Shown here one piece after another: positions 3,484 to 14,228 of a stretch of 45,978 nt of DNA. Position 1 is the stretch's first letter, and every line of letters begins with the position of its first letter. The position numbers were made by a program, and so were the translations under genes. The notes below the pieces were generated by a model. That model worked only from the letters and a program-made list of their open reading frames with translations, was not told the DNA's origin and made no database searches. Location of the stretch: NCBI GenBank assembly GCA_016930055.1, contig JAFGHP010000049.1, positions 1 to 45,978 on the forward strand. The letters run 5' to 3'. The DNA is from Candidatus Bathyarchaeota archaeon (lineage in GTDB: Archaea > Thermoproteota > Bathyarchaeia > TCS64).

Positions 3484-5019
3484 AAAAAATGGGGTATCGC
3501 TTTATTCAGTAATAAACCTGATAACGTTACTTTTTTTGATACAACTCTCCGTGATGGAGAACAAACTCCTGGTGTTTCACTTACAATTGCTAAGAAATTG
3601 GTGATAGCCAAAGCTCTTGATAGGTTAGGAGTAAAAGTAATTGAAGCTGGATTTGCAGCAGTTAGCAATGGAGAAAAAGAAGCTGTAAAATTAATTGCTT
3701 CAGAGGGACTTAACGCAGAAATATGTAGTGCAACTAGAAGTGTAAAAAGAGACATTGATGCTGCACTTGAAGCAGGTGTTGATTCTGTAAACATTATTAT
3801 TCCCACATCTGATTTACATATAAAGAAAAAATTAGATAAAACCAGAGAAGATGTCTTGGATATTACAACATCAGTAATTAATTATGCAAAAGAACATGGA
3901 ATAATAGTCGAGATCTGTCTTGAAGATGGCTCAAGAACTGACATGGGTTACTTAAAAAAAGTAATTCAGAGAGCTATAGATGCCAAAGTTGATAGAATTA
4001 CTCCCTGTGATACTGTTGGAATATTAACACCTGAAAGAGCTTACGAGTTCTATGGAGAAATTCATAAAACTTTTCCCAATCTAGTTTTAGGTGTACACTG
4101 CCATAATGATTTTGGTTTAGCTGTAGCAAATTCACTTGCTGCAATTGCTGCTGGAGCAACACATTTCCATGGAACAATTAATGGTTTAGGCGAAAGAGCA
4201 GGTAATGCTAGCCTAGAAGAAATGGCTGTTACGTTAAAATTACTATATGGTATTGAGACGGGAATAAATTCCACATATTTACAAGAAACTTCACAAATTG
4301 TATCAAGATCTACTGGGATGTTAGTTCAAGCTAATAAAGCGATAGTTGGTGCCAACGCGTTTGCTCATGAATCCGGAATACATACACATGCTATTCTTAA
4401 AGACCCTTTAACATACGAATCTATTGATCCATCTATTGTGGGAGCAGTAAGAAGGATTGCTACAGGTAAACATTCTGGTTCAGCGGGATTAAGTAAATCA
4501 TTATCTGAGATGGGTTTTAATCCTACCCCTGAACAATTCGATAAAATATTCCAGAAAGTAAAAAGTTTAGGTGATGAAGGAAAACCTGTCAGTGATACTG
4601 ATCTTTATGCTATGGCTGAAGAAATCACAAGTTCTAAATTGATTAATCCTTTAATCCTTGAAGAATTCATTGTTACTACTGGCAATAAAATTACACCAAC
4701 TGCTTCAGTAAAAATACGTAGAAATGGAAATATTATTGTTGAAGCAGACACAGGTAATGGACCTGTTGATGCAACCATAAATGCGATTAACAAAGCTATT
4801 CTACCTGAGCAAAGAGTTACACTAGATGTTTATCATGTTGAAGCAATAACTGGAGGTACTGATGCTGTAGTTAATGTTGAAGTCCGACTTAAACAAGGAG
4901 ATAAACTAGTTACTTCCAGAGGTGTAAGTGAAGATATAGTGAAAGCAAGTGTAGATGCTTATCTTAAAGGAGTAAATGTATACAGCAGCATGACAAAACG
5001 TAAAACAGGCGAAACTTAA
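3484..5019 (+). CDS. leuA: 2-isopropylmalate synthase (LeuA family); start not canonical
   Basis: A DRE-TIM metallolyase of the LeuA/citramalate/homocitrate synthase family. The catalytic FFDTTLRDGEQTPG motif is encoded at 3532-3573, followed by the HCHNDFGLAVANSLAAI metal-binding segment and GERAGNASLEE. A C-terminal LeuA dimerisation/regulatory domain occupies roughly the last 130 residues and is expected to give feedback control by the end product. The frame is open from 3484, just after a TGA at 3481-3483, but holds no ATG, GTG or TTG before 3598, and a start there would delete the catalytic motif. In the neighbouring frame, ATG 3465 or GTG 3480 would join the frame if the A7 run at 3483-3489 had six A's. 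Its stop overlaps leuC by 1 nt. The leuCDB context favours isopropylmalate, though citramalate synthase is possible. Confidence 0.85.
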   Translation, partial: KKWGIALFSNKPDNVTFFDTTLRDGEQTPGVSLTIAKKLVIAKALDRLGVKVIEAGFAAVSNGEKEAVKLIASEGLNAEICSATRSVKRDIDAALEAGVDSVNIIIPTSDLHIKKKLDKTREDVLDITTSVINYAKEHGIIVEICLEDGSRTDMGYLKKVIQRAIDAKVDRITPCDTVGILTPERAYEFYGEIHKTFPNLVLGVHCHNDFGLAVANSLAAIAAGATHFHGTINGLGERAGNASLEEMAVTLKLLYGIETGINSTYLQETSQIVSRSTGMLVQANKAIVGANAFAHESGIHTHAILKDPLTYESIDPSIVGAVRRIATGKHSGSAGLSKSLSEMGFNPTPEQFDKIFQKVKSLGDEGKPVSDTDLYAMAEEITSSKLINPLILEEFIVTTGNKITPTASVKIRRNGNIIVEADTGNGPVDATINAINKAILPEQRVTLDVYHVEAITGGTDAVVNVEVRLKQGDKLVTSRGVSEDIVKASVDAYLKGVNVYSSMTKRKTGET

Positions 5020-6275
5020 TGGGTTATACAGTTTCAGAAAAAATATTAGCTAGAGCCTCCGGAAACGATGCAGTAAATGTTGGTGAAATTGTTAAAGCAA
5101 AAGTAGATTTAGTAATGATACATGATGCTACAGGTGTTTTAGCAATTCAAGCCATGAAAGATATGGGAAGAACAAAGGTTTGGGACCCTAATAAAGTAAT
5201 TATTGTTCATGATCATGTGGCACCTGCTTGTACCATCCAATCAGCAAAAGTTCATAAAGAGTTACGTGATTTTGTGAAAGAACAAAATATTAAATATTTT
5301 TATGATGTTGGAGAAGGTGTTTGCCATCAACTCTTACCTGAAAAAGGTCATATAAAGCCTGGAACTGTCGTTGTTGGTGCTGATAGTCATACTTGTACTT
5401 ATGGTGCTTTTGGTTCTTTCGCTACAGGAGTAGGTAGTACTGATGCTGGTGTTGCTTTAGTTTTTGGGAAAAATTGGTTTAAAGTACCTGAAACCATCAA
5501 GATAAAAATTGATGGAGTATTAAAGAACAAAGTAACAGCAAAAGATGTTATTTTATTGATAGCTAAAAAAATTGGGGTTTCTGGAGCAACATATTCATCA
5601 TTAGAGTTATCAGGAGAGACAATTAGTGAAATGAGTATCTCAGGTAGAATGACGCTATGTAATATGGCTATTGAGATGGGTGCTAAAGCAGGAATTGTTG
5701 AACCAGATGAAAAAACCTATTCGTGGTTAAAATCCAAAATTAATGGAATCTATGAACCAATTTTAGCTGATGAAGATGCTAAATATAAAAAAACTTTGAA
5801 GTTTGATGTAACAAATTTAGAACCACAAGTTGCTTGCCCCCATAATGTAGATAACGTTAAACCTGTTAGTGATCTTCTTGATGTCACAATCAATCAGATT
5901 TTTATTGGCAGCTGTACAAATGGTCGTTTAGAGGATCTTAAGCAAGTACATAGTATACTAAAAGGAAAAAAAATTAGTAAAAATGTCAGAATGCTTATAG
6001 TCCCTGCTTCGAAAACAATATATAAAAATGCTTTAAGAAATGGAATAATAAACGACCTATTAGATTCTGGTGCTGTTATAAGTAATCCTAGTTGTGCAGC
6101 ATGTTTTGGTGGATCTATAGGTATCCTTGCCCCTGGTGAAGTTGGGTTAACTACCTCTAATAGAAATTTTAAAGGTAGACAAGGTTCACCAGAATCAGAG
6201 GTTTACCTCTGTTCCCCATATGTTGCTGCAGCGTCTGCTATTACAGGTAAAATTACTGATCCTAGGAGTGTTTAG
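5019..6275 (+). CDS. leuC: 3-isopropylmalate/homoaconitate dehydratase large subunit
   Basis: This 418-residue aconitase-superfamily protein is the [4Fe-4S] catalytic subunit that isomerises 2- to 3-isopropylmalate (or a homologue such as citraconate/homoaconitate). Visible are HDH at 64-66, GADSHTCTYGAFG near 120-132, GSCTNGR near 298 with the first cluster Cys, and NPSCAACFGG near 357 with the paired cluster cysteines. At 418 residues it has the length of the archaeal/short LeuC class that lacks the fused swivel domain, which is supplied by the next gene. The start ATG overlaps the leuA stop by one base and the gap to leuD is 2 nt, so the genes are translationally linked. Confidence 0.92.
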   Translation: MGYTVSEKILARASGNDAVNVGEIVKAKVDLVMIHDATGVLAIQAMKDMGRTKVWDPNKVIIVHDHVAPACTIQSAKVHKELRDFVKEQNIKYFYDVGEGVCHQLLPEKGHIKPGTVVVGADSHTCTYGAFGSFATGVGSTDAGVALVFGKNWFKVPETIKIKIDGVLKNKVTAKDVILLIAKKIGVSGATYSSLELSGETISEMSISGRMTLCNMAIEMGAKAGIVEPDEKTYSWLKSKINGIYEPILADEDAKYKKTLKFDVTNLEPQVACPHNVDNVKPVSDLLDVTINQIFIGSCTNGRLEDLKQVHSILKGKKISKNVRMLIVPASKTIYKNALRNGIINDLLDSGAVISNPSCAACFGGSIGILAPGEVGLTTSNRNFKGRQGSPESEVYLCSPYVAAASAITGKITDPRSV

Positions 6276-6277
6276 TA

Positions 6278-6772
6278 GTGAAAATAAGTGGAAATGTATG
6301 GAAATATGGTAACAATATAAATACAGATTATATTATTCCTGGAAGATACATGGAATTAACTGATCCATATGAAATGGCTAAACATGCAATGGAAGGAATA
6401 GATCAAGATTTTATTAATAAAGTCAAGAAAAACGATATAATTGTTGCGGGAGAAAATTTTGGGTGTGGTTCAAGCCGTGAACATGCCCCCTTAGCATTAA
6501 AATATGCAGGTATTGGATGTGTAATAGCAGAAAGTTATGCAAGGATTTTTTATAGAAATGCAATAAATATTGGTTTCTTAGCATTAGAGTGCCCAGAAAT
6601 AACGAAAATAGTTCAAACTAATGATATTATTGAAGTAGATTTAACTGAAGGCCTTATTAACAATAAATCAAATGGTAAAAAAGTCAATTTTATACCTCCG
6701 CCACCTTTTATGTTAGATGTGTTAAATGCAGGCGGTATAGTATCTTACTTAAGAAAGGTAGATGATTGGTGA
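6278..6772 (+). CDS. leuD: 3-isopropylmalate/homoaconitate dehydratase small subunit
   Basis: This 164-residue swivel-domain subunit pairs with LeuC. The N-terminal [15 protein letters not shown] motif and the substrate-binding [14 protein letters not shown] loop are intact, followed by [17 protein letters not shown]. It starts with GTG 2 nt after the leuC stop and ends in TGA, which overlaps the next gene's ATG. The short single-domain form is typical of archaea. The loop that sets chain-length preference cannot be resolved by eye, so isopropylmalate rather than homoaconitate is inferred from the operon. Confidence 0.92.
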
Positions 6773-7770
6773 TGAAAAAGTACAGAATTGCTGCGATTCC
6801 CGGTGATGGTATCGGACCAGAATGTATGAAAGCAACACAAATGGTGTTAAAAGCTCTTTTAAAAGATAAAAATTACACTCTGGAATTTCAAGAATATTAT
6901 GCTGGTGATGAATATAAAATAAAAACGGGAACCGCATTACCTAAAGAGACAATTCAAGGAGTTAAAGAAGCGGATGCAACTCTGTTTGTTGCGGTAGGAA
7001 ATACTGCTAAAGAAGTAATTATTCCTCTTAGACAAATGTTTAATTGTTATGCAAATTTACGTCCAGCTAAAGCTTATCCTGGGGTTAAGGCATTTAAACC
7101 TGACCTAGACATAATGATAGTTAGAGAAAATACTGAATGTCTATATAAAATGGTAGGCTATCAAGGATTAGACTGGGGAGTAAATTTACGTATAATTACT
7201 AAAGAGGCTTCTGAAAGGATAGCTAAATATGCTTTTGAATGGAGTAAGAAAAATAATAGGAAAAAAGTTACAGCTGTTCATAAGGCAAATGTTTTAGATT
7301 TTACTGATAACATCTTTCTTGAAGCTACACGAAAAATCGCTTCAGAATATCCTGAAATTAAGTATGATGAAGTGATTGTTGATGCATGTGCAATGAAATT
7401 AATTTTGTCACCTGAAAATTTTGATGTTATAGTAACCACCAATATGTTTGGAGACATACTATCAGACGAGGTGGCGGGTTTAGTTGGTGGGTTAGGGATG
7501 GCTCCTAGTGGGAATATTGGGGATAAAATAGCCATCTTTGAACCGGTCCATGGATCTGCTCCTGATATTGCAGGAAAAAATATTGCTAATCCTACTGCAA
7601 CTATATTATCAGCCATTATGATGTTGGAATGGCTAGGTGAAAAAGAATCAGCTACACAATTAGATAAAGCCGTTATGATGGTTCTTAAAGAAGGAACTAA
7701 TATTACTCCTGATCTAGGTGGAAAAGCTTCAACTAATGAAATGGCTTTAGAAATAATTAAAAAACTATAA
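6772..7770 (+). CDS. leuB: 3-isopropylmalate dehydrogenase (beta-decarboxylating dehydrogenase family)
   Basis: This is a beta-decarboxylating dehydrogenase that oxidises 3-isopropylmalate (or a homologue) to the 2-oxoacid with NAD. GDGIGPE lies at the N-terminus, RENTECLY and the Lys of AVHKANV in the middle, then the metal-binding TTNMFGDILSDE and the cofactor loop EPVHGSAPDIAGKNIANP. I chose ATG 6772, which overlaps the leuD stop by one base; GTG 6769 and TTG 6766 are alternatives in the same frame. It is the last gene of the leuACDB run. Homoisocitrate and 3-isopropylmalate dehydrogenases are hard to separate by eye; the leuA regulatory domain favours leucine synthesis. Confidence 0.88.
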   Translation: MKKYRIAAIPGDGIGPECMKATQMVLKALLKDKNYTLEFQEYYAGDEYKIKTGTALPKETIQGVKEADATLFVAVGNTAKEVIIPLRQMFNCYANLRPAKAYPGVKAFKPDLDIMIVRENTECLYKMVGYQGLDWGVNLRIITKEASERIAKYAFEWSKKNNRKKVTAVHKANVLDFTDNIFLEATRKIASEYPEIKYDEVIVDACAMKLILSPENFDVIVTTNMFGDILSDEVAGLVGGLGMAPSGNIGDKIAIFEPVHGSAPDIAGKNIANPTATILSAIMMLEWLGEKESATQLDKAVMMVLKEGTNITPDLGGKASTNEMALEIIKKL

Positions 7771-7792: not shown

Positions 7793-8404
7793 TTAGTTTA
7801 TTGGTTGATTTGAAGGAGTCTGATGGCTCTGATTGGGTATTGTTGAGACAAATTTTTTGTATATTGGTATTATACGTTCAGGTGATAATTGAATTCTCAT
7901 AAGATCACCTTCATTTTGATTTGTATAGATATATTGAAAACCAATGCTTTCGTAAAACTTTCTTAAAGGACGTTTTTTCTCATCAAATTCTTCAGTATTA
8001 AGAGAAATATAGGAATATCCTGTTTCATAACAATATATTAACAATAGAGCAACTAGAGTACTACCAATTCCTTTACCTTCAATTACACTCGCTAATGTAT
8101 CTAAATAGAAACCCCCTGGTATTGAATTATCATTATATCCAAATAAAAGTGAAAGCGTTTTATCTTGAATTTTCGCCATAAATAAAATGAATCCATTAGT
8201 ATTTACTCTTAGTTCAATCTCTTCTTTTGTATATCTTAATTCTTCTCGAAACATTAGTGAATCAACTTGTTCAACAATCTTGAAGAGATTATCATCAAGG
8301 TTTATTTGTAGAGAAATTTTACATGGAGTACCAAGTATAATAGATAGTTTTGACTCTGCTACTCTTATGGCTTCTTCTAAAAACGGGGGTTCTTCGTTTA
8401 ACAT
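7793..8404 (-). CDS. GNAT-family N-acetyltransferase
   Basis: This 203-residue protein has a C-terminal GNAT acetyltransferase fold. The acetyl-CoA pyrophosphate loop is EGKGIGSTLVALLL, a Q/R-x-x-G-x-G/A-type motif A, followed by the YISLNTEEFDEKKRPLRKFY and ESIGFQYI elements typical of the family. The N-terminal 60 residues are not recognised. It lies 8 nt after the stop of the Ddl-like ATP-grasp gene and on the same strand, so it is probably the last gene of a three-gene operon with the MurL-like gene. Its acceptor is unknown; the amine of an amino acid or peptide made by the two upstream enzymes is an inference from context. Confidence 0.8.
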   Translation of the reverse strand: MLNEEPPFLEEAIRVAESKLSIILGTPCKISLQINLDDNLFKIVEQVDSLMFREELRYTKEEIELRVNTNGFILFMAKIQDKTLSLLFGYNDNSIPGGFYLDTLASVIEGKGIGSTLVALLLIYCYETGYSYISLNTEEFDEKKRPLRKFYESIGFQYIYTNQNEGDLMRIQLSPERIIPIYKKFVSTIPNQSHQTPSNQPIN

Positions 8405-8412
8405 GTCACATA

Positions 8413-9432
8413 TTATATTATTTTGTAGCGCTTAAGTCCTGCGCTTACTATATATTTGACCATTTGATCAAATGTGTATCCACCTTTTATCCACATATAT
8501 GGATAGAAACTAAAATCGTCTTTTTCTACATCAAAGTCAATTCCTGGTAAAGGATTAATCTCTAAGAAATATAACCTTCCTTGTTTGTTATATCTATAAT
8601 CCACTCTACCCCAATCTTTACAATTCAATATTTTAATGATTTTCAAAGTATTTTCTTCGATCTCTCTTTTGAGACTTTCTGGAATATTTGCGGGACAGAT
8701 ATAATTCTTAGATGTGTCATAGATTGTTTTTGCTCTTTGCCCCAACACATTTTTGAGTTTCGGGTCGAATTTAGTAAAATCTACTTCAAAAATTGGTAGT
8801 ATTATTGGTTGATTATCTTTCTCGAAATTACCATAAAATCCTACACTAAATTCTCTACCATCAATGAACTCTTCAACTAGTATTGGTTGATTATATTCTT
8901 GAAGCATTTGCGAAATTTTTTGTCTAAGTTCTTTTTCGTTGTCAACTACATTATCTTCGTTTATTCCAATACTTGAGCCTTCGTGACTTGGTTTCAATAT
9001 CAAAGGATATTTTAAATTTTGATCAATTTTTTCATCTTTATCAAATAAGACAGTAAAAGGTGCTGTTTTAATTTGATGATATTCCAATATTTTTTTGGTT
9101 GTTGGTTTATCCAAACATATTGCTGTAGTCATAATTCCTGCACCAACATAAGGAATTTGTAACATTTCACAAAAGGCTGGAATATGGCTTTCTCTACTTT
9201 CTCCACTTATACCTTCGGCTCTGTTTAATACTATTGTTGGTTTAATTTTTTTGAGGTTTTCATAACAGGTTTCATCTGCTTCTATATGAATATATTCCCA
9301 TCCCGCTGCTTTTATCGCGTGTTGTACTAGTTCGATTGTATGTTCTGGTTCATATTCCACTTGAAACTCGTCATTTTCTTTTCGAGTATTACATACAAAA
9401 GCTACTTGGATTTTTTTCTTATTATGGGACAT
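8413..9432 (-). CDS. D-alanine--D-alanine ligase-like ATP-grasp enzyme
   Basis: This 339-residue ATP-grasp ligase is of the Ddl type. Visible are LILKPSHEGSSIGI (ATP-binding Lys and the glycine-serine loop), EEFIDGREFSVGFYG (adenine/ribose contacts) and, at the C-terminal end, DWGRVDYRY with FLEINPLPGI, the metal-binding Glu/Asn pair. The family forms an amide bond through an acyl phosphate, often between amino acids. It overlaps the MurL-like gene upstream by 11 nt and is followed 8 nt later by a GNAT gene, so the three are likely co-made. No other murein genes are present, so a role in a wall peptide is not shown. It could make a dipeptide or other amide metabolite. Confidence 0.85.
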   Translation of the reverse strand: MSHNKKKIQVAFVCNTRKENDEFQVEYEPEHTIELVQHAIKAAGWEYIHIEADETCYENLKKIKPTIVLNRAEGISGESRESHIPAFCEMLQIPYVGAGIMTTAICLDKPTTKKILEYHQIKTAPFTVLFDKDEKIDQNLKYPLILKPSHEGSSIGINEDNVVDNEKELRQKISQMLQEYNQPILVEEFIDGREFSVGFYGNFEKDNQPIILPIFEVDFTKFDPKLKNVLGQRAKTIYDTSKNYICPANIPESLKREIEENTLKIIKILNCKDWGRVDYRYNKQGRLYFLEINPLPGIDFDVEKDDFSFYPYMWIKGGYTFDQMVKYIVSAGLKRYKII

Positions 9433-10750
9433 TTGAAAGGACCTCTTTGTATATACTTATTACTTGGTTATTGATTTCTTTTGGCATAGTTATTGATTCG
9501 TGAAGGTTAAAGAAAGTTTTGTAGAGTTCATCTTCTCGACCTTTTGCTTCTTCCAAGAATCTCTGAGCAAATTCTTCTACTAGAGAACTTCTATCACCGT
9601 TTTTCCATGCTAAATAGAAAGCAAATAACTGTTCGTCACGACCTCTTCCTGTTAAAGCGTAAGTATTAATATTTGATCCGCCAAACAAACTGAAGTAATC
9701 TCTGCAATCTTCTGTTAACATATTTCTATTTATTCCAACTGAAGCAGGATCAAAACCACATGCTCTAATTAATAAATACATTTTACTGCATACACTACAA
9801 TTCATACACCATCGAGTATCTCTTCCAGCTTCAGTTTCAACAAAACAACTCATATGATATTTTGCTACTTCCGGATATCTTTTATATAAGGCATACACTA
9901 CAGCTATGTCGTTTAGTGGTTCAATTACACTTATTGTACGTACATTATTATTCGTTAAACTTCTTGTGATTAAATCAATGTTAATTGTCCATTTATGACT
10001 TTGGTCATATGCAGGATAACATATGTATCCTTCTCTATCATAATAGTATTCTGCACAACTCTGCTCGTTTCCAAACAAAATATATTTAGCTTCAAATGTT
10101 TGAGCGATTGGTAAAATCATCATTGCATACTGAGTATTTTGTAGACCCCAACCAATCTCGGTTTTACCTACTCCAAGTCTTACACCATCTCTTAAATGTC
10201 CTGTTGTATGAATAATTTTATTTAATTTTACTTTAAATTCTTTTTCGAAGTCTTTAGCTAAAATGTCTTTATGTTTTTCTTCGTAAAGAAGTAAGGGTTC
10301 GACAATGTATGTTATTTGAGGGTTTAAACCAATTTCTTTACAAACTGCCCAAGTGAGTAAACTATCTTTACCAAAACTTAAAGCAACAACACTGCTATCA
10401 TCTCTGCTTGGTTGTTTATAGCTTGGAATTTTCACATCATAATCCTTGAACTTGACCTTCAAGTTCATGTATTCTTTAATGAGTTCAGATGTACTTGTCC
10501 CATCAACATCAGCGCAACTCGGTAAATCCATTATCATGTTTTGGAAAAAATGAGTCTGGAAATATGGGGCTGATGTATTATACCTGATCTCTTTCTTTCT
10601 TAGAGTTAGAGGAAGATGGATTGTTTCTGCGTAGACTAGGTTGTCAAAAAGCACATCCTTAGCTTCTTGTGGGTAATTTTTCCAGAATCCATTAGGATAC
10701 TTCACGACATACCTAGACCCACGGAGATTTATCTCGAAACCGGAGTCCAT
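9422..10750 (-). CDS. MurL-like ATP-dependent peptide epimerase (PP-loop family)
   Basis: This large protein has an N-type ATP-pyrophosphatase loop SFGKDS (about residue 126 from the chosen start) and a cysteine cluster RWCMNCSVC about 190 residues later. Its length and layout resemble MurL, the enzyme that epimerises the terminal L-Glu of UDP-MurNAc-L-Ala-L-Glu to D-Glu through an adenylate in Xanthomonas. I recognise this from pattern only, so other PP-loop enzymes remain possible. The frame is open to a GTG at 10780, but a TATA-like box lies only 5 nt beyond it. ATG 10750 is better placed, about 35 nt from that box. It overlaps the Ddl-like ligase by 11 nt. Confidence 0.6.
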   Translation of the reverse strand: MDSGFEINLRGSRYVVKYPNGFWKNYPQEAKDVLFDNLVYAETIHLPLTLRKKEIRYNTSAPYFQTHFFQNMIMDLPSCADVDGTSTSELIKEYMNLKVKFKDYDVKIPSYKQPSRDDSSVVALSFGKDSLLTWAVCKEIGLNPQITYIVEPLLLYEEKHKDILAKDFEKEFKVKLNKIIHTTGHLRDGVRLGVGKTEIGWGLQNTQYAMMILPIAQTFEAKYILFGNEQSCAEYYYDREGYICYPAYDQSHKWTINIDLITRSLTNNNVRTISVIEPLNDIAVVYALYKRYPEVAKYHMSCFVETEAGRDTRWCMNCSVCSKMYLLIRACGFDPASVGINRNMLTEDCRDYFSLFGGSNINTYALTGRGRDEQLFAFYLAWKNGDRSSLVEEFAQRFLEEAKGREDELYKTFFNLHESITMPKEINNQVISIYKEVLSNVP

Positions 10751-10780
10751 CTGTCTTGCTTCGATTGAGAGGCTAGACAC

Positions 10781-10789
10781 TTATAGATA
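10781..10789 (-). promoter_or_regulatory. TATA-like promoter of the MurL/Ddl/GNAT operon
   Basis: The minus strand reads TATCTATAAG here. Transcription would start near 10758-10762, which supports translation from ATG 10750 rather than from GTG 10780. The adjacent bases on the plus strand, TAGACACTT, also occur in the right half of the acs operator, but in another orientation to the TATA box. Confidence 0.4.
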
Positions 10790-10816
10790 CCTTGTGGATT
10801 TATATCCGGATTCGAT

Positions 10817-10853: not shown

Positions 10854-11837
10854 TTGGGACAAATCTTGATGGATATATTGCAAAATGAATTAATTCAAAA
10901 CGGTATAGGAGATACGATATTAACACATTCACGTAACCTTGAAAAATTGCTTGTTTATAACAATATTTTTCTAAAATTTGAAGGCGGTAACCCAACTGGC
11001 ACAATGAAAGATCGTGCAGCTTATGCCTGTTTAAAGGAAGCAAAAGAATTAGGATATAAAGAAATAGCTATAGGTTCATGTGGTAATTTTGGCGCAGCAT
11101 TTGTTTATGTTGCTAAGCTTTTTGACATTATACCTCATGTATACATTCCTCAACATTATCACACTCAAAGAATACTTGAAATGGAAAAAAACGGTGGAAT
11201 AATCCATCGCGCTCCTGGATCATACGAAGATGTGGTTTTCTTTAGCTCAAAAGAAGCTAAAAAAAATAATTGGTTTGATGCTAACCCAGGTGTAAAATTA
11301 AATACAAAATTATCTATTGATGCTTATGCAACAATTTCTTATGAAATCTTAAATAATTTAGGCAAAACCCCTGATTATGTTGCTATACCTGTAGGGAATG
11401 GAACAACAATTGCGGGAATACATCACGGTTTTAAAATATTAAAAATTAATAAAATTATAAAAAAACTTCCTATTTTGATAGCAGCAAGTACAAGTGGTGG
11501 TAATCCAATTATAAAATGCTTCCAAGAAAATAAAAAACAAATAGAAGATTTAAAACCAAACGAAATTATTGAAACAGATTACAATGAACCTTTAGTTAGT
11601 TGGATTAGCCTTGACGGTCAAGAAGCATTAAATGCACTTTGGGAAAGTAAAGGTTGGTCAACTTATGTTGAAGACAATGAGCTTGTACATTATTCTAATC
11701 TTTTAGAAAAAGAAGAGGGGCTTTCCGTTCTTCCCGCTTCTGCAGGTTCTCTTGCAGCCATTGCTAAATATATTGATAAAAATAATCCTAAAAAAGGATT
11801 AACTTTTGTAGCTGTTTTAACTGGAAGAAAGTTTTAA
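10854..11837 (+). CDS. Threonine synthase-like PLP-dependent enzyme
   Basis: This 327-residue fold-type II PLP enzyme is of the threonine synthase/cysteate synthase/tryptophan synthase beta type. The PLP lysine sits in NPTGTMKDRAA near residue 47, the substrate/PLP phosphate loop is GSCGNFGAAF, and VAIPVGNGTTIAGIHHGF is the glycine-rich phosphate cradle. It is shorter than classic ThrC and starts directly with the catalytic domain. TTG 10854 is close to the expected transcript start; ATG 10869 is also possible. It is divergent from the MurL/Ddl/GNAT operon and its last 4 bases overlap the convergent aldehyde oxidoreductase gene. Threonine synthase, cysteate synthase or a diaminopropionate-type enzyme all fit. 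Confidence 0.7.
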   Translation: MGQILMDILQNELIQNGIGDTILTHSRNLEKLLVYNNIFLKFEGGNPTGTMKDRAAYACLKEAKELGYKEIAIGSCGNFGAAFVYVAKLFDIIPHVYIPQHYHTQRILEMEKNGGIIHRAPGSYEDVVFFSSKEAKKNNWFDANPGVKLNTKLSIDAYATISYEILNNLGKTPDYVAIPVGNGTTIAGIHHGFKILKINKIIKKLPILIAASTSGGNPIIKCFQENKKQIEDLKPNEIIETDYNEPLVSWISLDGQEALNALWESKGWSTYVEDNELVHYSNLLEKEEGLSVLPASAGSLAAIAKYIDKNNPKKGLTFVAVLTGRKF

Positions 11838-13699
11838 CGGACCTTGTCAAGTTTAACATCTACTGAACTAAGGCTTAACCGTTTTAATTCATTGGTTTGA
11901 GGAATCCCTTTTTCATCCCAACCCATTGCTTTATAATATTCCTGAACAAAAGCTTCCACTTCTTCCTCTGTTTTGTATTTTCCTTTATATGGTCCTGTTG
12001 GTAGAGGTTCATAAAACCTTTTGGGATTTACATCATCTATTTTGGGTTTCCATTTTAATTCATGGCTACCTAGTAATAATGCTGCTCTTTGTATGTCAAT
12101 TATTCGTTTTGCATCAGTATTATACCATATTTCTTTTTCCATAGGCCAACCTCTGACAGAGGTATAGAACTCAAATAATTTACTTCTTGTGCCTTCGGGA
12201 TATGTGTTAAAGTTACAATGAACCCCGCTATCATTTAATAATACAGTTAATTCACTGGTTGGGTGGTCTATTGGTAAATAAGCACAACTAGTATGATCTC
12301 CACCCTGGCTACTTAAAGCATAACTAATAGTATGGGGGTAGTCTAATCCGCTTCTAATCCCATGAGCACCAATTGCTATACCTTTAGAAGTTACATTGTA
12401 TAAATTGAGATCAATATTTTTTATTTCACCTATTTTTTTACATGCAAGGTGTGTTCCTTCAGCAAGAATCTCTCCTATTCCTTCTCTTTTTACAATTAAC
12501 TCTATTAAATTAGCAAAACTATCAGCATCTCCCCAATCTAATTTGAAGCCTAAATCTTTCTCAGTAATTATTCCTCTTTGATATAATTCTGCAGCGAAAC
12601 CTAATACATTTCCACATTGGATTCCACATAATCCAGTTTCATCAAGCAAAGAACTTAAGTAAACATTTTCTTCAGGAGTAAATATACCTAAATTTGTCCC
12701 TGCATATGCCATAAGTTCATAATCAGGATTATCTGTGAGAGCTCCAATATATTTCCCAATTTTTGGTGTTGATAATTTCATGCATCCTGTTGGGCAACCA
12801 AAATCTGCCCAGTATCTTTTAACCCAGACCCGTTGTTCATACCATTGACAGCCCTGCGTTTTTTCATTATGCCATTCTTCTTGCCAATTTTTTACTGGTT
12901 CAGAGCTCAAAGTGTTCCCAGCATGATAACTAAACCAACTTGTCCCCCATCGACGCCTAAAATCACTTGCCAATATTTTTTTGGTTAATTCACGGATTAA
13001 TTGTACTGTTTTCTCATAATCATATGGCTCTGGCAGAGGTCCATGACCTTTGACAACAAGTGCTTTTAATTTTTTGCTTCCCATTACAGCGCCATAACCG
13101 CCATACCCTGCACCATAACTTAATTTCCCGACAACTGCAGCCATTCTAACAATATTTTCACCTGCAGGACCAATGTATACACTCTGAGGTTCTTTTACTT
13201 CTCTTTTATTTTTGTACGTTTTCTTTAAAATTGTCCTTCCTTCTTTACTTATTGTCTTTAAAAAATCTATACTTCGCATTCCCCAGAGATGACTTGCGTC
13301 ACGAATTTCGATTTGATTATCAGTGACCCAAATATAAACAGGGTTTTCACTTTTACCGGTTACAAAAATTCCATCTATTCCTGCACATTTCATCTCAATT
13401 GGTAGTTCACAACCAATGCTGCTACCTACTATACCCATACTTTGTGGTGATTTACCACTAATGCATAATCTGGCACCAGGCCAAAATCCGGTTAAGGGTC
13501 CAGTAAAAAATGTTAAAATATTATCTGACCCATAAGGATCAATTTCTTCCCATTTATCACCTAATCTATCCCATAGAAGCTTAACAGCTAATCCCCTTCC
13601 TCCAATAAATTGGCGAAGGTCACTCTCTGGGAATTTAAAATCTTTAATTGTTATTGTCGTTAAATTTATTTCAATAAATTTTCCTGCATATCCTCTCAT
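11834..13699 (-). CDS. Aldehyde:ferredoxin oxidoreductase, tungsten pterin family
   Basis: This 621-residue member of the AOR family oxidises aldehydes to acids and passes electrons to ferredoxin using a tungsten or molybdenum bis-pterin and one [4Fe-4S] cluster. The N-terminal domain begins MRGYAGKFIEINL and includes GGRGLAVKLLW and the pterin-site stretch TGFWPGARLCISGKSP. The usual C-x2-C-x3-C cluster motif appears as D299-x2-C302-x3-C306, with the remote ligand at C495 in DSGVHCNF. So three cysteines are in place and the first position is Asp. It starts 1 nt after the stop of the ferredoxin subunit gene, and the two form an operon. The actual aldehyde is unknown. Confidence 0.88.
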   Translation of the reverse strand: MRGYAGKFIEINLTTITIKDFKFPESDLRQFIGGRGLAVKLLWDRLGDKWEEIDPYGSDNILTFFTGPLTGFWPGARLCISGKSPQSMGIVGSSIGCELPIEMKCAGIDGIFVTGKSENPVYIWVTDNQIEIRDASHLWGMRSIDFLKTISKEGRTILKKTYKNKREVKEPQSVYIGPAGENIVRMAAVVGKLSYGAGYGGYGAVMGSKKLKALVVKGHGPLPEPYDYEKTVQLIRELTKKILASDFRRRWGTSWFSYHAGNTLSSEPVKNWQEEWHNEKTQGCQWYEQRVWVKRYWADFGCPTGCMKLSTPKIGKYIGALTDNPDYELMAYAGTNLGIFTPEENVYLSSLLDETGLCGIQCGNVLGFAAELYQRGIITEKDLGFKLDWGDADSFANLIELIVKREGIGEILAEGTHLACKKIGEIKNIDLNLYNVTSKGIAIGAHGIRSGLDYPHTISYALSSQGGDHTSCAYLPIDHPTSELTVLLNDSGVHCNFNTYPEGTRSKLFEFYTSVRGWPMEKEIWYNTDAKRIIDIQRAALLLGSHELKWKPKIDDVNPKRFYEPLPTGPYKGKYKTEEEVEAFVQEYYKAMGWDEKGIPQTNELKRLSLSSVDVKLDKVR

Positions 13700-13700
13700 A

Positions 13701-14228
13701 TTAAATCAGATCCTTACCTTTTTCACCAAATAATGAAATTGCTAAATTTTTTGAAACTTCTTCAGGTGTTTGAGCAAATAATCCATATTGACTTGATGAT
13801 TCCCGAGGAACTATGTATAAACAATTAAAATTAGTTTCTTGACAAGCCTCCACACACACTGGATTACCATCACATAAATTACAAATTACTATGTGATTTT
13901 TTGTTGGATGAATTGTAGGAATATGTCCTGGACAAGCTTCAATACATTTACCACAAGCAATACATTTTTCGTAATTCACTTTTATGCATTTAAGGTCAAG
14001 ATCAATGCTTAATGCTTCAACTGGACAAATTTCAACACACGCAGGAGATTCACATTGAGCACATAAATGAGCTACTTCAAGTCCAGGAAACAACATAAAA
14101 ATCCGTATACGCGAAGCCTCTGGCCAAATTTTTCCTTCATGCTCTAAACTACAAGCAATTTCACATCTTCTGCAACCAGTACATTTAATGTGATCGCGCA
14201 TTATCCAAAAGGGTTTGCTTGTATCCAA
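13701..14228 (-). CDS. Four-cluster ferredoxin subunit partnered with the aldehyde oxidoreductase
   Basis: This 175-residue electron-transfer protein has four cysteine quartets: CTGCRRCEIAC, CAQCESPACVEIC, CIACGKCIEAC and CNLCDGNPVCVEAC. It resembles the small subunits of AOR, formate dehydrogenase and DMSO-reductase type enzymes (AorB/HycB-like) and should carry up to four [4Fe-4S] clusters. It has no signal peptide, so it acts in the cytoplasm. The TTG at 14228 gives the listed start; an in-frame ATG at 14201, just before the first quartet, is an alternative. The catalytic subunit follows 1 nt after its stop. Confidence 0.88.
   Translation of the reverse strand: MDTSKPFWIMRDHIKCTGCRRCEIACSLEHEGKIWPEASRIRIFMLFPGLEVAHLCAQCESPACVEICPVEALSIDLDLKCIKVNYEKCIACGKCIEACPGHIPTIHPTKNHIVICNLCDGNPVCVEACQETNFNCLYIVPRESSSQYGLFAQTPEEVSKNLAISLFGEKGKDLI

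Follow-up and report, generated by a model that had tools for sequence, protein, structure and literature searches.

Layout of the locus

The window analysed here is a stretch of 45,978 nucleotides that forms the full contig JAFGHP010000049.1 of a Candidatus Bathyarchaeota genome (GCA_016930055.1, here G000; 1.79 Mb, 94% complete). It carries four linked genes for a MurL-like protein, a ligase resembling D-alanine:D-alanine ligase (Ddl), a GNAT-type acyltransferase, and an enzyme dependent on pyridoxal 5'-phosphate (PLP), whose joint product is probably a small modified peptide that may contain a mirror-image amino acid. The features are as follows:

9422-10780, minus strand: MurL-like protein, 452 aa, GTG start; NF041275 match, QueC-type PP-loop fold in the model
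10361-10378, minus strand: PP-loop motif SFGKDS, residues 135-140 of the MurL-like protein, conserved in relatives
9788-9847, minus strand: Cys cluster C312-x12-C325-x2-C328-x2-C331 of the MurL-like protein, resembling the QueC zinc site
8413-9432, minus strand: Ddl-like ATP-grasp ligase, 339 aa; PF07478, TIGR01205 and Foldseek matches to Ddl
7793-8404, minus strand: putative GNAT-type acyltransferase, 203 aa; weak GNAT matches and conserved neighbour
10854-11837, plus strand: PLP-dependent enzyme, threonine-synthase-like (PRK06381, NF004996), 327 aa from TTG, start codon uncertain
10799-10804, minus strand: TATA-like hexamer TATAAA, read from the sequence, 24 nt 5' of the GTG; weakly supported

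The three open reading frames on the minus strand are all present and intact, and the arrangement described in an earlier note on this DNA, with an overlap of 11 nt between the MurL-like and Ddl-like genes (9422-9432) and a gap of 8 nt before the GNAT gene (8405-8412), proved exact on re-reading. The same note had placed the start of the MurL-like gene at 10789, which was wrong by 9 nt: the actual start is the GTG at 10780, since an in-frame TAA lies at 10783-10781, and the conserved N-terminus agrees. The TATA-like element that it had seen before this gene is present as TATAAA at 10804-10799. Its spacing to the GTG is that expected of a leaderless archaeal transcript; congeners carry degenerate versions of the hexamer, which weakens its support. 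From this layout, transcription of all three genes from one promoter is plausible. The identities given to the three products were also upheld, the first by its family profile and that of its relatives, the second by strong profile matches and a Ddl fold, and the third by weak similarity together with its position as a conserved neighbour in Bathyarchaeia and Asgard archaea.

Conservation of the gene set

The gene order is not unique to the assembly and the genes form a conserved set, which upholds the earlier note: their linkage extends far beyond the source assembly, to 13 Bathyarchaeia genomes and 15 from the distant Asgard archaea. The gene maps place the PLP, MurL-like and Ddl-like genes together in 13 Bathyarchaeia genomes, and the orthologues of the MurL-like (MurL1) and Ddl-like proteins have an identical occurrence, in the same 13 of 27 genomes of the host family. 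A GNAT gene was seen in 12 of the 13 set-bearing genomes and is fused to the Ddl-like gene in three. The PLP protein scores above the PRK06381 cut-off in 12 of these 13 genomes, the thirteenth (G004) having its PLP gene split over contigs, and in one other genome (G014), where the gene is kept beside the same helicase neighbour and the other three genes are absent.

Relatives of MurL1 occur in 18 of 228 Asgard genomes. Two Borrarchaeum genomes have the genes in the order PLP, MurL, Ddl and GNAT, all in one direction, and 13 further loci hold all four with the PLP gene convergent, giving 15 Asgard genomes with the complete set; among the remaining matches, loci L185 and L192 are cut by contig ends and G646 was not mapped. 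In four host-family genomes the PLP gene lies immediately upstream of the set and points the same way. The orientation of this gene thus takes three different forms across Bathyarchaeia and Asgard archaea while the linkage is kept, and the divergent PLP gene, a connection that the earlier note had only suggested, is a member of the set, linked in the set-bearing genomes of the host family and at the 15 Asgard loci.

Pairwise distances of the four proteins correlate strongly (Mantel r 0.84-0.91, 22 quartets). Shared descent alone gives such a correlation, which therefore tells us that the genes are inherited together but not what they do. The survival of the linkage through orientation changes and strong divergence, on the other hand, argues for one pathway, of which we are highly confident; that it is dedicated to a small peptide is very likely. 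Plasmids yielded no match to the MurL-like protein.

Several neighbouring genes were considered as further members and rejected. Genomes of the window's genus have, after the set, genes for a gamma-glutamyl-cyclotransferase-like protein, an amidohydrolase, an enolase-superfamily protein, and a glutamine amidotransferase, a run to which an alanine racemase is added in two genomes (L025 9572-13634, L026 10159-15999, L027 47-5551); the first four are confined to this genus. Alanine racemase is found throughout the order whether or not the set is there and is missing from the set-bearing Borrarchaeum, and the formylmethanofuran dehydrogenase genes near L031 and L178 look unrelated. The leuA/leuC/leuD/leuB-like genes of the window (3598-7770) are neighbours of the set in no genomes but G000 and G004, and a leucine function for them is probable; models for homoaconitase and homoisocitrate dehydrogenase score close below their cut-offs. 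On the other side, an aldehyde:ferredoxin oxidoreductase and a 4Fe-4S ferredoxin-like protein adjoin the PLP gene (11834-14228), where the oxidoreductase recurs in two congeners but the ferredoxin-like gene in a single one. In one Asgard genome, genes for a MenC/N-acylamino-acid-racemase-type enzyme and a beta-lactamase-fold (D-aminopeptidase-like) protein stand between the PLP and GNAT genes (L189 2458-4735).

A distant MurL homologue with a predicted QueC-type fold

The sole NCBIfam match of the MurL-like protein is NF041275 (MurL, E=1.4e-6), with residues 108-439 aligned collinearly to positions 118-442 of the 447 in the model and a score of 27.1 bits, below the curated cut-off of 700. The same profile is matched by 24 of 25 relatives (best 7.5e-12), which come from one Microgenomates genome and otherwise from several archaeal phyla, and PRK13795 is the only other model matched, weakly, in three. 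No Pfam family was found for the protein at E 0.1, so that a match to QueC (PF06508) is absent. By its sequence the protein is a distant MurL homologue, which denotes homology and not membership.

The AlphaFold model, made with 25 sequences, has a mean predicted local distance difference test (pLDDT) score of 94.4. Its best structural matches in Foldseek are the QueC-family PP-loop enzymes QatC, QueC and Cap9, followed by ThiI, GMP synthetase, and TtuA. Template modelling (TM) scores by target length are 0.68 for QueC (3bl5) and 0.80 for Cap9, both with probability 1.00, although these matches cover the core domain only and not the whole protein (TM by query about 0.31-0.35). The SFGKDS motif is present in all 22 quartets, and G137, K138 and S140 as well as the four cysteines (C312, C325, C328, C331) are invariant in the 25 relatives. 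The conserved forms in the family, S-x-G-K-[DE]-S and C(x)12CxxCxxC, can be read as modified forms of SGGxDS and C(x)8CxxCxxC, the motifs of QueC (PMC13329287).

On these grounds the model assigns the MurL-like protein a QueC-type PP-loop fold, a link that is new as far as we could check: no mention of MurL was found in the QueC-family literature searched, the paper on the QueC motifs included. For MurL itself, the same fold is suggested by the NF041275 profile match. PP-loop enzymes adenylate their substrates and release AMP. The predicted fold thus fits the AMP-forming chemistry of MurL, an enzyme described as having no known conserved domain (PMC8788868). With MurL (XOO_1319 of Xanthomonas oryzae) the window protein shares the collinear distant homology over about 330 residues and an adenylating fold compatible with the conversion of ATP to AMP, but it differs in its far lower score, in its partnership with a Ddl-type ligase, and in the lack of a MurD2 partner or a peptidoglycan pathway in searches for Mur ligases and transpeptidases. 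With QueC, QatC and Cap9 it has the fold in common, and its two motifs may be variants of theirs, but it has neither a QueC sequence match nor a 7-deazaguanine or defence context. We put the chances that the protein epimerises as even, because many members of the QueC-type PP-loop fold form amides.

Other MurL-like genes were seen in different company. A second paralogue in G000 (34% identity; L042 624-3935, G000:C85; also L039 and L040) lies beside genes for a ferritin-like-looking protein, an S-adenosylmethionine-decarboxylase-like protein, and a small Cys-rich protein, a neighbourhood conserved in the genus. In a Nanoarchaeota genome (L080 479-9393) a Ddl-like gene, two MurL-like genes, another ATP-grasp gene, a PLP decarboxylase, and an ABC exporter stand in a row, which by gene content looks like a peptide natural-product cluster, and in Microgenomates (L078 2-3287) a MurL-like gene is followed by two Acetyltransf_6 (FemX-like) genes, overlapping.

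Partner enzymes and a second archaeal module

The ligase matches PF07478 (E=5e-36) and TIGR01205 (E=6e-48; 163.5 bits, below the cut-off of 245.65), and its model (pLDDT 86.5) finds Ddl structures as best Foldseek matches (E about 1e-23). In the alignment it keeps the ATP-grasp core and, as Ser308, the position of Ddl Ser281, which we take to hold the carboxylate of the second substrate. At the position of Ddl Tyr216, part of the D-Ala1 triad, 21 of the 22 quartets have Thr, the pattern used having found no match in the remaining one, and the family has a motif of its own, NRAEGxxGESRE. The protein combines the fold, core and carboxylate-holding position of Ddl with a score, a residue and a motif that differ from it. 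The enzyme likely acts on an amine bearing a free carboxylate, and D-Ala:D-Ala ligase activity is unlikely; it may or may not use D-amino acids, since neither score nor Tyr216 position marks it as a D-Ala:D-Ala ligase. That it makes a dipeptide seems somewhat probable.

Related Ddl-like genes (about 38-48% identity) were observed in G004 and other Bathyarchaeia beside radical-SAM genes resembling lysine-2,3-aminomutase, usually with two ligases at each locus (L142 5787-9053, L143 6306-9505, L144 2770-4919; also L145 6094-9899 and L147 543-3056). These neighbourhoods are again the context of a small amino-acid product. In a further protein of G000, 821 aa long (L146 81-2546, G000:C77), the N-terminal half is ATP-grasp-like and the C-terminal half Ddl-like.

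The third protein reaches three GNAT families at E about 1e-3 (19-20 bits), just below the Pfam cut-offs, and keeps the GxG stretch in the alignment. We moderately favour a role for it in acylating the product.

The PLP protein passes the NF004996 (PRK06381) cut-off with 374 bits against 266. A separate threonine synthase is encoded in the genome at L089, between homoserine-kinase-like and aspartokinase-like genes (named by eye), and largely keeps, as NSINPWRIEGQ, the motif NSxNPxRxEGQ, which we take to be the phosphate-site motif of threonine synthase. The PLP protein and its relatives lack this motif, the window protein having ANPG...N instead, and they differ from the host enzyme also in sitting with MurL-like genes; the threonine-synthase label on the PRK06381 proteins of these archaea is probably wrong.

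Other Thermoproteota have a second module in which a PLP gene is followed by a DgcN/DUF1611-like gene and a distant MurL-like gene (L155 3128-6626, L156 3311-7392, L154 5190-9130). The genes overlap in G226, and a GNAT gene stands beside two of the three loci, in G333 and G233. The PLP proteins of this module likewise pass the PRK06381 cut-off and have ANPG...N in place of NSxNPxRxEGQ, so that the combination of PLP and MurL-like proteins recurs with two different partners. Here a homologue of DgcN, a D-Glu N-acetyltransferase, occupies the place of the ligase. DgcN of the DgcN/DgcA D-glutamate pathway (NF041892, NF042940) differs in being absent from the window's cluster, and full-length homologues score 165-169 bits against a cut-off of 480.

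Proposed pathway and alternative explanations

The evidence can be joined in a scheme of four steps. The PLP enzyme would make or supply an amino acid (step 1). The Ddl-type ATP-grasp ligase would convert one amino acid to its acyl phosphate, activating the carboxylate, and couple it to a second, whose free carboxylate the enzyme holds, to give a dipeptide (step 2). The MurL-like PP-loop enzyme might then adenylate the C-terminal carboxylate with ATP, whereupon the activated alpha-carbon would be epimerised from L to D and the adenylate hydrolysed with release of AMP (step 3). Finally, the GNAT would cap the free amine from acyl-coenzyme A (step 4). This would yield a dipeptide acylated at its N-terminus and ending in a D-residue, most probably a soluble metabolite, for instance a compatible solute or a signal. 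The interpretation in the earlier note is supported in part. What the analysis shows is that the genes are linked and co-vary, that folds and catalytic motifs are conserved, and that a wall pathway is absent; the substrates, the epimerisation, the acylation, the order of reactions, and the biological role we infer. This joint picture is our best single reading, held tentatively, and a murein-independent D-peptide pathway in Bathyarchaeia and Asgard archaea, with a MurL-type, QueC-fold epimerase acting on the product of a PLP-fed Ddl-type ligase and a GNAT cap, is put forward with a confidence likewise somewhat short of even. In its favour is the recurrence of this PLP family beside distant MurL-like proteins and a DgcN homologue. 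Against it weigh the NF041275 score far below cut-off, fold relatives that mostly form amides or a thiolate and do not epimerise, the Thr at the Tyr216 position, the weak GNAT family match, and genome G023, in which no GNAT was found beside the PLP, MurL-like and Ddl-like genes.

The principal competitor would make the MurL-like protein an amide-forming PP-loop enzyme of QueC-like chemistry, with an N-acylated dipeptide of amidated or extended C-terminus and no D-residue as product, by analogy with the osmolyte N-acetylglutaminylglutamine amide. Its closest solved structures (QueC, QatC and Cap9) form amide-type bonds, and QueC uses ammonia (PMC13329287). The Ddl-GNAT fusion in three genomes also resembles the logic of N-acetylglutaminylglutamine amide synthesis (TIGR03103 and partners), where an acetyltransferase and an ATP-grasp enzyme give an acetylated dipeptide. 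However, neither the window ligase nor the GNAT matches a family of that system and an asparagine-synthetase-like partner is lacking; no QueC or asparagine-synthetase model was matched by the sequence of the MurL-like protein, for which MurL is almost the sole family match. The set has no conserved amidotransferase subunit, the nearby glutamine-amidotransferase-like gene being confined to the window's genus. We regard this explanation as unlikely, though the strongest of the alternatives.

A set that degrades or recycles D-amino acids or D-peptides, in which the GNAT would acylate a D-amino acid and the MurL-like protein correct stereochemistry as in the action of DgcN/DgcA on D-glutamate, is less probable still. 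The second module with its DgcN homologue speaks for it too, as do genes of the enolase superfamily, related to DgcA and dipeptide epimerases, that lie near the set in G489 and in the window's genus, but the ATP-grasp ligase, a biosynthetic enzyme, is invariably present and the MurL reaction runs in a single direction, L to D, and consumes ATP (PMC8788868). The likeness to QatC and Cap9 could also hint at protein or nucleobase modification or at defence, as in type IV CBASS or qatABCD; yet PADLOC gave no match for any protein of the set, the partner proteins act on amino acids, co-variation ties the genes together and no defence island is visible, which leaves this a very improbable explanation. 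Membership in a murein or pseudomurein wall pathway, to be considered given that MurL and Ddl are bacterial wall enzymes and that the host has an alanine racemase above cut-off (L148), is nearly refuted. Both Mur-ligase hits of G000 are FolC, G010 and G015 carry the set and have no Mur ligase, and no transpeptidase was found in 28 related genomes, so that the view of the earlier note, drawn from a window without wall genes, extends for Mur ligases and transpeptidases to whole genomes: the product is not murein.

Novelty and meaning

No description of the four-gene set was found in the literature searched, the coverage of which was partial, and searches on MurL in archaea, on DUF1611 with racemase, and on D-alanine in Bathyarchaeia brought up no relevant work. 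The enzymes are members of known superfamilies; their combination, their hosts and the QueC-fold link are new as far as we could check. If the D-peptide pathway is real, archaea without murein would make a small peptide with a D-residue by means of relatives of bacterial wall enzymes, and MurL- and Ddl-type enzymes would not be wall-specific. MurL would moreover be placed in the QueC/PP-loop fold, making an AMP-forming mechanism directly testable. For the discovery of metabolites in these two important and mostly uncultured groups, the cluster is a defined target of four enzymes.

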